Positions 1,310-4,953 of a DNA stretch of 5,140 nucleotides are shown piece by piece. The notes beneath the pieces were generated by a model. It worked only from the letters and a program-made list of their open reading frames with translations. It was not told the DNA's origin and ran no database searches. Location of the stretch: assembly GCA_947483545.1 (NCBI GenBank), contig CANKNP010000353.1, positions 1-5,140 on the forward strand, read 5' to 3'. The DNA is from Deltaproteobacteria bacterium (GTDB lineage Bacteria > Myxococcota > UBA796 > SXON01). Position 1 is the stretch's first letter. Each line of letters opens with the position of its first letter. Position numbers and translations under genes: made by a program.

Positions 1310-1612
1310 TCACAGCTCCTCCCCCCACGCCGTGTACCAGGCGGCGCAGTCGCCGTCGTCGATGATCGCCTGCCGGTCGTCACACCAGCCTTCCCGGCCA
1401 AGCTCCTGCTCTTCCCAGACGTAGGTGTCGCACCAGTCTTGAAAATCTGCGGCCGAGGTGAAGCCTACCGAGGCGCCCCACTCCAGGCCGCTCTCCGCGA
1501 GACACGCCGAGAACTTCTCCTCGGCGTGCACACACAGCGTCTCACAGGGATCCTCACGCGGCGCGCAGCCCAGGCTGAGCACCCAGAGGCTGAGCACCGC
1601 GTGAGCCCGCAT
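1310..1612 (-). CDS. Small six-cysteine lipoprotein (100 residues), function unknown
   Basis: I do not recognise a named family. The N-terminus MRAHAVLSLWVLSLGC has Arg2, a hydrophobic core and a lipobox ending LGC, giving lipidated Cys16; Ser at -3 is less usual. The roughly 84-residue mature part is acidic and rich in Trp, Glu and Asp. It has six further cysteines at 23, 27, 37, 61, 77 and 89 (spacing C-x3-C-x9-C-x23-C-x15-C-x11-C), an even number that suggests three disulfides in an extracytoplasmic fold. The start is ATG at 1612, overlapping the stop of the upstream propeller lipoprotein by one base (TGATG), so the two are translationally coupled. Only a weak GAG precedes it. The protein is probably made together with the receptor and its stalked lipoprotein, and could be an accessory subunit at the outer membrane. 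The in-frame sequence further upstream is a shadow of the neighbouring gene. Confidence 0.75.
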   Translation of the reverse strand: MRAHAVLSLWVLSLGCAPREDPCETLCVHAEEKFSACLAESGLEWGASVGFTSAADFQDWCDTYVWEEQELGREGWCDDRQAIIDDGDCAAWYTAWGEEL

Positions 1613-2817
1613 CACTCGTGGATCGCCACGTCGAGGGAGCTGGGACCGAGGGCGGCGCCCACGGTGGCTTCGACCGCGCAAGTCACCGGGTTGATCTTGG
1701 TGAACCCGACTTCCGCGGGGGTCCCGCCGCCGTATCCGTCGCCGACCGCGGCCCAGACCATGCCGTCCGGCGTCGCCACCATCGAGCCGATGTACGCGTT
1801 GCCGATGTCCACGGTGGTCAAGGCGGCGGTGCTGGCGTCGATGCAGAGCAGAGACCAAGTGTAGCAGTCGTCCGTGCTGGACACGAAGTGGCCATCGGCG
1901 GTGCCGACGACCCCGCCGAGGTTTGCGCCCAGATCCTCCTCGGTCAGGAACATGGGGGTGTACGAGTCGTCCGAGGTGTCAAACGCGGAGAGACCGCCGT
2001 CGAGCAAGGGCCCGAAGTCCTCGTTGTAGTAGTCGCCGCCCGAGAGCAGGATGCCGTCGGGGTTGGTGGGGTCGGGCTGGAGGAGCGGATTCGGGCCGAC
2101 CTCCCAGGAGTCCACCACTTGCCAGGTCGAACAGTCGATCTTCGCGAGTGTACCGCTGCCATCCGCCGAGACCCAATCAAAGAGCTGGTTCATCGCGAGG
2201 TACAGGTAGCCGTTGGGGGCGAGGAACATGCGGTCGGGCTCGGGGCTGCCGTCGCCGTCGTCAAAGGCCGAGAGGTCCACGGAGCCGGTCTGCAGCCCCG
2301 TCGTCGCGTCGACGACCATGAGCGCGCCGGTGCCGTAGGGCGCGACCACGATGGCCCCGCCGCACTCGGCGACATCGTGGGGGTTTGAGCCGTCGCCGGT
2401 CGAGAACTCCAGCACGGGTGCCGAGAAGTCCCGATTGATGAACTTCTGCACGGTGTTTTCGGAGGAGCGGTTCAACACGTACGTGGCGTCGCCGATCTGG
2501 CGGATCGACGCGTCGGAGGAGACGGGCAACACCCGGTCGGTCAACGCGCCGGCTGAGTTGATGGTGACGAGGATGCCGGTCGTGTAGTCGGTCGTGCTGG
2601 CGACGATGGTGAAGTCGGCGTCCGCATCGGTGTCGGTATCCGTGTCCGTATCCGTGTCGGTGTCCGTATCGGTGTCGGTGTCGGTGTCGGAGTCCGCATC
2701 GGTGTCGGTGTCGGTATCGGTGTCGGTGTCGGTGTCGGCGGGGCCGGTGCCCGAGTCGTCGATCACGGGCTCGCAGGCGAGGAACGAGGGGAGGGTGAGC
2801 AGAAGGGCGAGAGACAT
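1612..2817 (-). CDS. Stalked beta-propeller lipoprotein, candidate BtuG-like surface corrinoid-binding partner
   Basis: The protein has 401 residues. The signal MSLALLLTLPSFLAC places the lipidated Cys at 15; the lipobox FLAC is acceptable but not ideal, and there is no basic residue before the core. Residues 28-68 form a stalk with Asp at every second position: six Asp-Thr units, an Asp-Ala-Asp-Ser break, ten more units, then Asp-Ala-Asp-Ala-Asp. Residues 69-401 (about 330, a size that suits a seven-bladed propeller) hold repeats of YVTN/YncE style such as NPHDVAECGGAIVVAPYG (145-162), VVDATTG (168-174), APNGYLYLAMN (200-210) and ATPDGMVWAAVGDG (348-361). Other cysteines are at 152, 229, 318, 325 and 380. 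The gene is read directly after the B12-riboswitch receptor. In Bacteroides, BtuG is a propeller surface lipoprotein that binds cobalamin and caps BtuB, and this gene has the same position and architecture. The homology and B12 binding are inferred. It could instead be a generic propeller lipoprotein. Confidence 0.8.
   Translation of the reverse strand: MSLALLLTLPSFLACEPVIDDSGTGPADTDTDTDTDTDTDADSDTDTDTDTDTDTDTDTDTDTDADADFTIVASTTDYTTGILVTINSAGALTDRVLPVSSDASIRQIGDATYVLNRSSENTVQKFINRDFSAPVLEFSTGDGSNPHDVAECGGAIVVAPYGTGALMVVDATTGLQTGSVDLSAFDDGDGSPEPDRMFLAPNGYLYLAMNQLFDWVSADGSGTLAKIDCSTWQVVDSWEVGPNPLLQPDPTNPDGILLSGGDYYNEDFGPLLDGGLSAFDTSDDSYTPMFLTEEDLGANLGGVVGTADGHFVSSTDDCYTWSLLCIDASTAALTTVDIGNAYIGSMVATPDGMVWAAVGDGYGGGTPAEVGFTKINPVTCAVEATVGAALGPSSLDVAIHE
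2614..2736 (-). repeat. Hexanucleotide coding repeat for an Asp-Thr stalk
   Basis: About 20 tandem hexamers of the form GAY-ACS (minus strand) cover 123 bases and encode the Asp-Thr linker of the lipoprotein. The order is six Asp-Thr units, Asp-Ala-Asp-Ser, ten Asp-Thr units, then Asp-Ala-Asp-Ala-Asp. Codons mix GAC/GAT and ACC/ACG, so the DNA repeat is imperfect. A change in copy number by whole hexamers keeps the frame and would only lengthen or shorten the stalk. Confidence 0.9.
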
Positions 2818-2820
2818 GGA

Positions 2821-4953
2821 TTACTCCTTGGGGGATTCTTTCCAGCGAACCGTGACCATCACGGTGCGCCCGGGGAGCGGGTAGCCGACAAAGTCGGTCA
2901 GGGGTTTGACGACCAGCGTGTCATCGGCCGGATCCAGCGGGTTCCGGTCAACGGCCATGCCGCGAACGTCGAAGAGGTTGTGAACGGCGGCCTCGACCGT
3001 GGGGAAGTCCCGTGCGACACGCACGGAGGCGGTCACAGCGTGCAGATCTCGTGGCGACGAAGGCATCAAGTTGGCCTCGTCCAGGAAGGTCGCCCCGGTG
3101 TAGGACCAGATGTGCGAGAGCACGAGGCGGTGCGGGTAGTTTGCAGCGAGGGTGAGCGTCGTCGCCTGGCTGACGTCGAGGGGCGCCGTGTTCGGGAGTT
3201 GGTTGTTGGAATACGTCGGGTTCGTGTCCAGGTTTCGCGTCAACAGGTGGGTGGCGGTCGAACTGGACGCCACGCCAAGGTGAACGCCCCCGACGGTGCC
3301 GTCCAACCCGAGCTGGAGCGCACCCTCCAGCGTCCGCAGGTACGCCTCGCCAAGGTTCACCGCGTGCTCCGTCTGCTGCGAGTTGGGCACGTAGGTGATG
3401 AGGTCGTGGACCCGTTGGCGGGCGTACCCAGCGTCTGCCCCCACCGTCAGCGGTCCGAGCCGAGTGGGATCGACGCGCACACCCGCCTCCAACCCGAACC
3501 CGGTCTCGGCGACCAGATCGGTGTTCCCGACGATCACCCCCTGGTCGCCGAACAGCTCGGTCATCTCGGGCGCCCGGGCATAGAGCCCGCCGCTCCCGCG
3601 CAAGGAAAGCGGCCCGACGATGTTCCAGCTCAACGCACCCCGCGGGAGCACGAACACCGCGAGATCGTCGGAGTCCGGTGACACCGGCATGTTTTCGAAC
3701 GGCACGTCGCCCAGCAGGTGGTTGTCGATCACGTCGAGCTGAATGACCGGGGAGAGTGTGACCAACCCCAGCACCGGTTTGAAGGATGCGTTTGCCGACA
3801 GGGCCGCCGTTCCACCGCGACGGATGCGGTGACCGTCCCCGTTCTCCTCGCCCTCTAGCAGGTTGAACGGTCGATAGTCCTCCTGGCGCCCACGCACCAG
3901 CAGGCTTGTGGTCAACCAGGGGGCCGGCACGATCACCGTGTCGATCTGCGCGCCGCCGGTGTTCCAGACGCCTCGGCTCCAGCTTGGGGCCAGCGCCAGC
4001 TCGCCCGCCGGATCGTTGACCGTCTCGTCGCGGTACAGCCACCAGGCCCGCGGCGACACCCGAACGGCCGACTTGGAACGCAGATCGCCGTCGAGCACCA
4101 GCAGGTTGCGGGCGCTCGTCCAGGTAGCCTCTGTGGAGGGGTTCGAGATCGTGCCCGTCAGCTCCGACGAGGTCCACGTGGGCACGTCCATCACCGACAA
4201 CGTGACGCCGGGCGTCGCCCTTGTCCGGACCCGCGCGATGCCACTCGCCCGGTCGATGCGGTTGTGCTCGCGGATCGGCGTGCGGTCGTCGAACCGGTTG
4301 AAGTCCGTGCCCTGGTCGTCGAAATAGGGCCAGTTGCCGTCGGTGTGGAGCTGGTCGAAGGTGAACAGGGCGTCCGTCTTCCCAAGTTCGCGATGGCTCA
4401 CGCCCCAGGTGTGAATCGTGCCCCAGGACCCGCCGGAGACGCCGATCGCGGTCGGGGAGGAAGCGCCGGTGCGCAGGTCGATGACCCCGCCCATCGCGGC
4501 GGATCCGTACTTTGCGGGTGCGAAACCACGGTAGACCAGCATGTCGGAGAAGGTGGCGACGGGCAACGTCGAAAGATCGATGACAGCGTCCCCGTTGGGG
4601 TTCAGCGGCACGCCGTCGAGGAAGATCTCGACCTGCTGAAACGTCGATCCGCGCAGGCGGACCGCCGCGAAGTCGCCGAGCCCCCCGAGCCGCCGAACCG
4701 TTGTCCCCGGGATGGTCTCAAGCGCCCCGGCGAGGTCGGTCAGGCCGGCCTGATCGGGGCCAAGCGGTACGACGGTGACCGCCGCCTGGGCGGCGCCATC
4801 GACCGGGGCGTAGATGACGACCTCGGCGCCGGGCGCAGGTGTGGCATCCCCGGGAGGGTCAACAGCGAGCGCGATGGGGAGGAGCGGGAGCACGGCACAT
4901 CCGGCCATCCCTGTGGAGAAGGGACGCGCCAAACGGCACGCCCCATCACGCAC
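2821..4953 (-). CDS. btuB: BtuB-like TonB-dependent outer-membrane receptor for cobalamin
   Basis: This is a TonB-dependent receptor, a 22-strand barrel with an N-terminal plug that would import corrinoids using TonB-ExbBD energy. The coordinates assume GTG at 4953 (710 residues). An Arg-rich n-region, a hydrophobic core and an ALA cleavage site (28-30) form a signal peptide. EVVIYAP (44-50) resembles a TonB box. The plug (about 59-162) carries RLRGSTFQQVEIFLDGVP (99-116) and YGSAAMGGVIDL (149-160), both classic plug motifs. The C-terminus has the barrel-closing signature YPLPGRT...VTVRW, with Trp at 704, then six extra residues. The start is uncertain. TTG at 4971 lies only 10 bases from the aptamer, and ATG at 4908 would remove all the arginines; none of the three has a clear Shine-Dalgarno. 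The receptor family is certain from motifs. The substrate is assigned mainly from the cobalamin riboswitch in front. A siderophore or other receptor is the alternative but would not explain the riboswitch. Confidence 0.9.
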   Translation of the reverse strand: MRDGACRLARPFSTGMAGCAVLPLLPIALAVDPPGDATPAPGAEVVIYAPVDGAAQAAVTVVPLGPDQAGLTDLAGALETIPGTTVRRLGGLGDFAAVRLRGSTFQQVEIFLDGVPLNPNGDAVIDLSTLPVATFSDMLVYRGFAPAKYGSAAMGGVIDLRTGASSPTAIGVSGGSWGTIHTWGVSHRELGKTDALFTFDQLHTDGNWPYFDDQGTDFNRFDDRTPIREHNRIDRASGIARVRTRATPGVTLSVMDVPTWTSSELTGTISNPSTEATWTSARNLLVLDGDLRSKSAVRVSPRAWWLYRDETVNDPAGELALAPSWSRGVWNTGGAQIDTVIVPAPWLTTSLLVRGRQEDYRPFNLLEGEENGDGHRIRRGGTAALSANASFKPVLGLVTLSPVIQLDVIDNHLLGDVPFENMPVSPDSDDLAVFVLPRGALSWNIVGPLSLRGSGGLYARAPEMTELFGDQGVIVGNTDLVAETGFGLEAGVRVDPTRLGPLTVGADAGYARQRVHDLITYVPNSQQTEHAVNLGEAYLRTLEGALQLGLDGTVGGVHLGVASSSTATHLLTRNLDTNPTYSNNQLPNTAPLDVSQATTLTLAANYPHRLVLSHIWSYTGATFLDEANLMPSSPRDLHAVTASVRVARDFPTVEAAVHNLFDVRGMAVDRNPLDPADDTLVVKPLTDFVGYPLPGRTVMVTVRWKESPKE
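2824..2829 (-). promoter_or_regulatory. Ribosome binding site of the stalked lipoprotein, inside the receptor's last codons
   Basis: AAGGAG forms the final Lys-Glu codons of the receptor gene. It is followed by TAA (the receptor stop), TCC and then the ATG at 2817. The 6-base spacing is optimal, and this is the strongest Shine-Dalgarno in the window. It fixes the lipoprotein start and couples its translation to termination of the receptor. Confidence 0.85.

Follow-up and report, generated by a model that had tools for sequence, protein, structure and literature searches.

The closest described counterpart of the locus analysed here is the BtuB-BtuG system of Bacteroides. In the accessible portions of the two sources, BtuG homologues are reported only in Bacteroidetes, from 313 human gut genomes (PMC6143338), and lipoprotein-capped transporters seem exclusive to that phylum (PMC10404256). 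Background on ECF and BtuM B12 transporters is given in PMC6072759 and PMC8620254, and other B12-binding lipoproteins, including DUF4465 members in Myxococcota, are treated in PMC13398666 and PMC12751083, each source being available in part. No published report of a Myxococcota BtuB-propeller B12 system was found in the literature covered, which consisted partly of excerpts and had subscription journals mostly outside it. The window (the whole stretch of DNA analysed, 5,140 nucleotides) is probably the outer part of a Myxococcota corrinoid (vitamin B12) uptake operon, with a beta-propeller protein as its capture lipoprotein. Its assignment to Myxococcota was judged from relatives, among them the database proteins P0020, P0021, P0062 and P0066 by their source names.

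Layout of the window and its receptor

All genes described in the window share the minus strand with a cobalamin riboswitch (Table 1), whose aptamer has its 5' part cut off by the window edge. An earlier note on this DNA had placed the receptor directly behind the riboswitch and closely coupled to the lipoprotein, and both claims were borne out: the RF00174 match lies directly ahead of the receptor start (ATG 4908), and the receptor stop TAA is separated by three bases (TCC) from the lipoprotein ATG. Translated from ATG 4908, the receptor has the length of a 100%-identical database protein (P0056); an alternative start, TTG 4971, overlaps the aptamer. Further along, the ATG of the Cys-rich gene overlaps the propeller stop (TGATG). 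The REP-like repeats described in the same note came down to one inverted repeat with 18-nt arms within the span searched, 1100-1420.

Table 1. Features of the window and of one related locus (L044), with the basis of each assignment
Feature	Coordinates	Strand	Basis
Cobalamin riboswitch aptamer	5140-4966	minus	RF00174, 89.3 bits, E 7.6e-22, gathering score 31.5
BtuB-like TonB-dependent receptor	2821-4908	minus	695 aa; Plug and barrel (Pfam)
BtuG-like beta-propeller lipoprotein	1612-2817	minus	401 aa; lipobox FLAC; AlphaFold2 model; VIA-align list
Asp-Thr stalk, lipid anchor to propeller	2617-2739	minus	sequence, residues about 27-67
Propeller body	1615-2616	minus	residues 68-401 of the lipoprotein
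Small Cys-rich lipoprotein, 100 aa	1310-1612	minus	relatives in class loci; aligned Cys
Second propeller-like lipoprotein, cut by window end	1-1158	minus	WD40/PQQ-like Pfam matches below cut-off
Inverted repeat, 18-nt arms, 89% complementary	1204-1221/1275-1292	no strand	between Cys-rich gene and second propeller gene
570-aa protein and ABC-ABC-EcfT fusion	L044:10896-14854	propeller's strand	relatives in 26/67 and 21/67 class loci

Pfam searches identified the plug (5.6e-15) and barrel (5.4e-17) of a TonB-dependent receptor. Among solved sequences the best match was BtuB (3rgm, E 9.2e-12), with the siderophore receptor XusA level (9gbc, 1.4e-11), and the modelled fold was BtuB-like in a structure search. 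NCBIfam was led by the myxochelin siderophore receptor MxcH (97.6 bits against a cut-off of 925), and the BtuB models gave 61.5 bits (cut-off 836) and 55.5 bits (TIGR01779, equivalog cut-off 599.7); no NCBIfam equivalog cut-off was reached, and all scores were far below. Since the BtuB equivalog cut-off was missed, the receptor is termed BtuB-like rather than BtuB. Its named relatives were mostly iron-complex or plain TonB receptors, one being listed as 'vitamin B12 transporter'. A record titled Bifidobacterium breve (L001) has a Gram-negative, Myxococcota-type receptor with a riboswitch, and the label of this bin is very probably wrong.

The propeller lipoprotein and its relation to BtuG

The earlier reading of the second gene as a lipoprotein of about 400 residues, with an Asp-Thr stalk and a propeller body, agreed with the analysis: the lipid Cys of the FLAC lipobox is Cys15, the stalk precedes the body, and the AlphaFold2 model of the body is a beta-propeller (mean pLDDT 94.3, pTM 0.92) with a fold like that of 3DSM. 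Residues 67-401 have a pI of 4.05 and a net charge of -38.

The whole-protein search of three related genomes (G001-G003) gave 51, 31 and 47 matches, nearly all via the stalk, so the query of later genome searches was either an alignment or the body without its stalk. Each of these genomes has dozens of otherwise unrelated ORFs with an Asp-Thr stalk, which is apparently a general lipoprotein spacer. NCBIfam matches to adhesins arise from the stalk, and an adhesin identity was rejected. Among the 69 propeller copies described below, a loose pattern found a lipobox-like Cys ahead of the body in 63, of which at least L092 is spurious, and the stalk measured 13 to 53 residues with L092 set aside. 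Asp at +2, the classical lipoprotein retention signal in E. coli, was present in 6 of the 63 lipobox-bearing copies. The Bacteroidetes lipoprotein export signal is described, in the available part of PMC6143338, as exclusive to Bacteroidetes.

Profile searches, a check that the earlier note had proposed, brought up BtuG structures: with profile A1, twelve sequences of BtuG had E values between 3e-4 and 7e-3, and with profile A6, from a wider alignment, these twelve had 9.5e-14 to 1.7e-8, two of them (8baz, 8puj) being counted as BtuG by scores and names only. BtuG structures also head the VIA-align list, at 12-15% identity over the aligned structure. An archaeal surface protein with a YVTN propeller, 1l0q, ranks among or above BtuG in both structure and profile searches. 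No Pfam or NCBIfam family reached its cut-off with the propeller (DUF5074, 16.8 bits versus 27.2), no named BtuG occurred among the 31 matches of profile A6 in a large protein database, where only the 7990 candidates with most words in common were scored, and no propeller relatives were found in viral contigs. Since 1l0q is as near as BtuG and the pocket residues are not clearly matched, the propeller is termed BtuG-like rather than BtuG; the likeness may be that of a distant homologue or of an independently recruited YVTN propeller. The relatives P0040-P0047, of which two are named Gemmatimonadota, end in EF-hand/dockerin-like tails, and the rows covered show no lipobox in them.

In BtuG2, Trp194, Trp272 and Tyr316 narrow the cavity for the upper ligand, according to the accessible text of PMC10404256. 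BtuG2 numbering was taken from 8bmy as chain index plus 31, which gives Trp 194/272 and Tyr 316/335. In the profile alignment, which is firm only around Trp272, Trp272 itself aligns with an Asn kept in 91% of the propeller family, Trp194 with a polar position (Asn, Gln, Ser and others) and Tyr316 with Ile/Val; Tyr315 aligns with a position that is aromatic in 98%, and Tyr335 falls near a position aromatic in 45 of 45 sequences. If the propeller binds corrinoid, its pocket is probably built differently from that of BtuG2, as judged from aligned residues. A model of receptor and propeller joined in one chain had a pTM of 0.68, from only two paired rows of 100, a value compatible with some or with little confidence in how the two parts are placed; when this model was searched, Foldseek and VIA listed receptors, and VIA listed propellers too, as separate matches.

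Recurrence of the gene pair in Myxococcota

The gene pair, whose recurrence in related genomes the earlier note had made its proposal of a capture system depend on, was found across Myxococcota, mostly with cobalamin riboswitches. A receptor scan of reference genomes gave three loci, all with a riboswitch ahead of the receptor, and the class of one of these loci was sampled as 71 genomes. The propeller body was present in 66 of the 71, at 69 places, a count that includes the inverted duplicate in G045 twice and two separate places in G060. In the G045 locus (L051, G045:C215) the two copies of the operon score identically, and the duplication may be an artefact of assembly. Cobalamin riboswitches were found at 104 places in 67 of the 71 genomes, and lay 2.0-3.9 kb upstream on the same strand at 43 of the 69 propeller places, against a chance expectation of 0.03 within 4 kb.

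Neighbourhoods were taken from 67 class loci, leaving out a weak second place in G038, and the profile used to recognise receptors was made from the window receptor together with the matches it gave in those 67 loci. At five loci (L042, L072, L102, L105, L107) the contig breaks off immediately ahead of the propeller, and in 58 of the 62 assessable loci the receptor directly preceded the propeller on the same strand (57 by script, 58 with the first copy of L051), being broken or cut in two of the 58 (L071, L079). Twelve class loci with the receptor-propeller pair had no cobalamin riboswitch at the gathering threshold, and one further locus (L114, in G062) had riboswitch and receptor, yet its genome gave no propeller match in the 71-genome search.

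Propeller copies with neither receptor nor riboswitch were found in four class loci (L075, L088, L091, L103). By reading, the propeller of L088 and L091 is directly behind a large CxxCH-rich lipoprotein, and the fold may serve another job there. In L103 it sits behind an amylase-like lipoprotein, and in L075 behind another lipoprotein (339-1265, stalked, with a PEIVLGSPEG...VFENAF-type domain), with the four later operon genes downstream.

Across the phylum, the propeller body was present in 150 of 377 genomes, class members included. The survey outside the class comprised the 20 best-scoring places, in 18 genomes: a cobalamin riboswitch lay upstream on the same strand at 16 of the 20, a receptor on the same strand at 12 (in L120 after the propeller) and on the other strand at one, and one place (L134) had neither. 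At six of these places (L122, L123, L125, L126, L130, L131) the riboswitch directly precedes the propeller with no receptor between, the leader length being judged by reading, and three of the six genomes had no further cobalamin riboswitch at the same threshold. The propeller itself, not only the receptor, is therefore tied to corrinoid control.

These six loci bear on whether the propeller partners the receptor in a structural role, binds no ligand of its own and resembles BtuG only through a common YVTN fold. Such a role would fit the tie between 1l0q and BtuG and the pocket aromatics, which are not clearly conserved; a riboswitch placed ahead of the propeller alone argues against it, and it is considered quite improbable. 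Gene pairing, regulation and predicted fold support the propeller as a BtuG-like corrinoid catcher, whose binding and docking we infer.

Later operon genes and the proposed uptake route

In 43 of the 67 class loci a relative of the small Cys-rich lipoprotein lies on the propeller's strand; this protein had no family match, and six Cys besides the lipid Cys were invariant in 24 of 24 aligned sequences. The second propeller has relatives so placed in 26 of the 67; its WD40/PQQ-like Pfam matches (best 9.6e-9) were all below cut-offs, and its profile was dominated by WD40 proteins, giving no lead on function. In L044 the operon runs through the Cys-rich lipoprotein, the second propeller, a 570-aa protein and a 749-aa protein, neighbours overlapping, the last two past the part that the window spans. 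The 749-aa protein contains two ABC_tran stretches (1.2e-39) and a CbiQ domain (7.4e-18) by Pfam, matches NCBIfam ECF ATPase models below their cut-offs, and has a sequence that reads as a single-chain ECF energising module. The 570-aa membrane protein begins with a lipobox-like stretch and is hydrophobic in its C-terminal part, gave no convincing match in Pfam, NCBIfam or PDB sequences, and is from its position a candidate for the substrate-binding part of the ECF transporter. All four later genes were found together with the receptor in 15 of 67 class loci, counts of later genes being affected by genes cut at the stretch end and by the many loci that end too soon. The order differs in L065, L081 and L096, where the receptor comes after the genes for the membrane protein and the ECF module.

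The class looks like B12 users, mostly scavengers. B12-dependent MetH was over the cut-off in 55 of 71 class genomes, with some match in 70, and CobI/CbiL, a corrin-ring step, was over the cut-off in 4, with weaker matches in 14 more. The weaker matches mean little, because 13 of 14 control genomes gave a CobI/CbiL match and only 4 passed the cut-off, and since the class genomes are drafts, absences are soft.

Cobalamin riboswitches also control cobalt transporters, and what the operon imports might be cobalt, or a cobalt complex other than corrinoid, a reading with which the Pfam name of the EcfT part (CbiQ, Cobalt transport protein) and the lack of a known family for the membrane partner agree. 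The CbiQ family takes in EcfT proteins in general. By its fold the receptor resembles BtuB, which is also among its best sequence matches, and with CobI/CbiL over the cut-off in so few class genomes, there would be little need of cobalt for de novo synthesis; cobalt import is judged very improbable, and corrinoid is kept as the probable substrate.

The ECF genes raise the further question of which way the propeller faces. Directed to the periplasm, it would take corrinoid leaving the receptor and hand it to the ECF transporter in place of BtuF, which is consistent with a lipoprotein that adjoins the receptor and is in one operon with the ECF module in 21 of 67 loci, with the variation in stalk length, and with the four L044 operon proteins scanned, in which no BtuF-type domain was found. 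Its closest fold, however, is the surface protein BtuG, and its steady neighbour is the receptor (58/62), not the ECF genes (21/67, many loci ending early), and a periplasmic orientation is considered unlikely.

For the preferred surface orientation, the following route is proposed. Under B12 shortage, the riboswitch would permit expression of the operon, as expected from its family. In the manner of Bacteroides BtuG, the propeller lipoprotein, held by its lipid and acidic stalk, may capture corrinoid with its acidic propeller and pass it on to the receptor, and the BtuB-like receptor, by its family and riboswitch, would move it across the outer membrane. In near relatives of the window the same operon continues to the ECF energising module and a membrane protein, maybe its substrate-binding part, so uptake over both membranes would be encoded together there. 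The wider proposal, to which an even chance is given, is that throughout Myxococcota BtuB-like receptors work with a family of propeller lipoproteins that are under riboswitch control and have a corrinoid pocket of another build. In one class, on this proposal, they would share a single operon with an ECF transporter, its substrate part being a novel fusion of lipoprotein and membrane protein, so that one operon would encode the B12 route across both membranes.

If true, lipoprotein-capped TonB-dependent B12 uptake would not be confined to Bacteroidetes, and with the same arrangement in a second phylum, capture of a vitamin by a lid would be a more general answer to scarcity. The Myxococcota proteins would also offer an independent set for studying ligand hand-over from lid to receptor, and would hint at how Myxococcota that apparently need B12, mostly without CobI/CbiL, get it.

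Compared with known systems, the ECF-type or S-component-like B12 route over the inner membrane is like that of ECF-CbrT and BtuM, as far as the available part of PMC6072759 describes them. Unlike those systems, the Myxococcota operon has ABC, ABC and EcfT as one protein, and the candidate partner, which matches no known family, joins a lipoprotein-like domain to a hydrophobic one. The pairing of a receptor with a surface lipoprotein is shared with the XusA-XusB siderophore system of Bacteroides (PDB 9gbc, 9hqk), XusA being level with BtuB in the receptor's sequence matches. Bacteroides BtuB-BtuG differs in phylum, in the 12-15% identity over the aligned structure, in Trp272 and probably Trp194 of BtuG2, which are not kept in the Myxococcota propeller, and in the inner-membrane part, which is ECF in many Myxococcota relatives and not BtuCDF. 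Shared with it, on the accessible portions of PMC10404256 and PMC6143338, are the cobalamin riboswitch, the BtuB-type receptor and the adjacent propeller lipoprotein, and the propeller is, like Bacteroides BtuG, negatively charged, with BtuG as its nearest solved structures by VIA-align.
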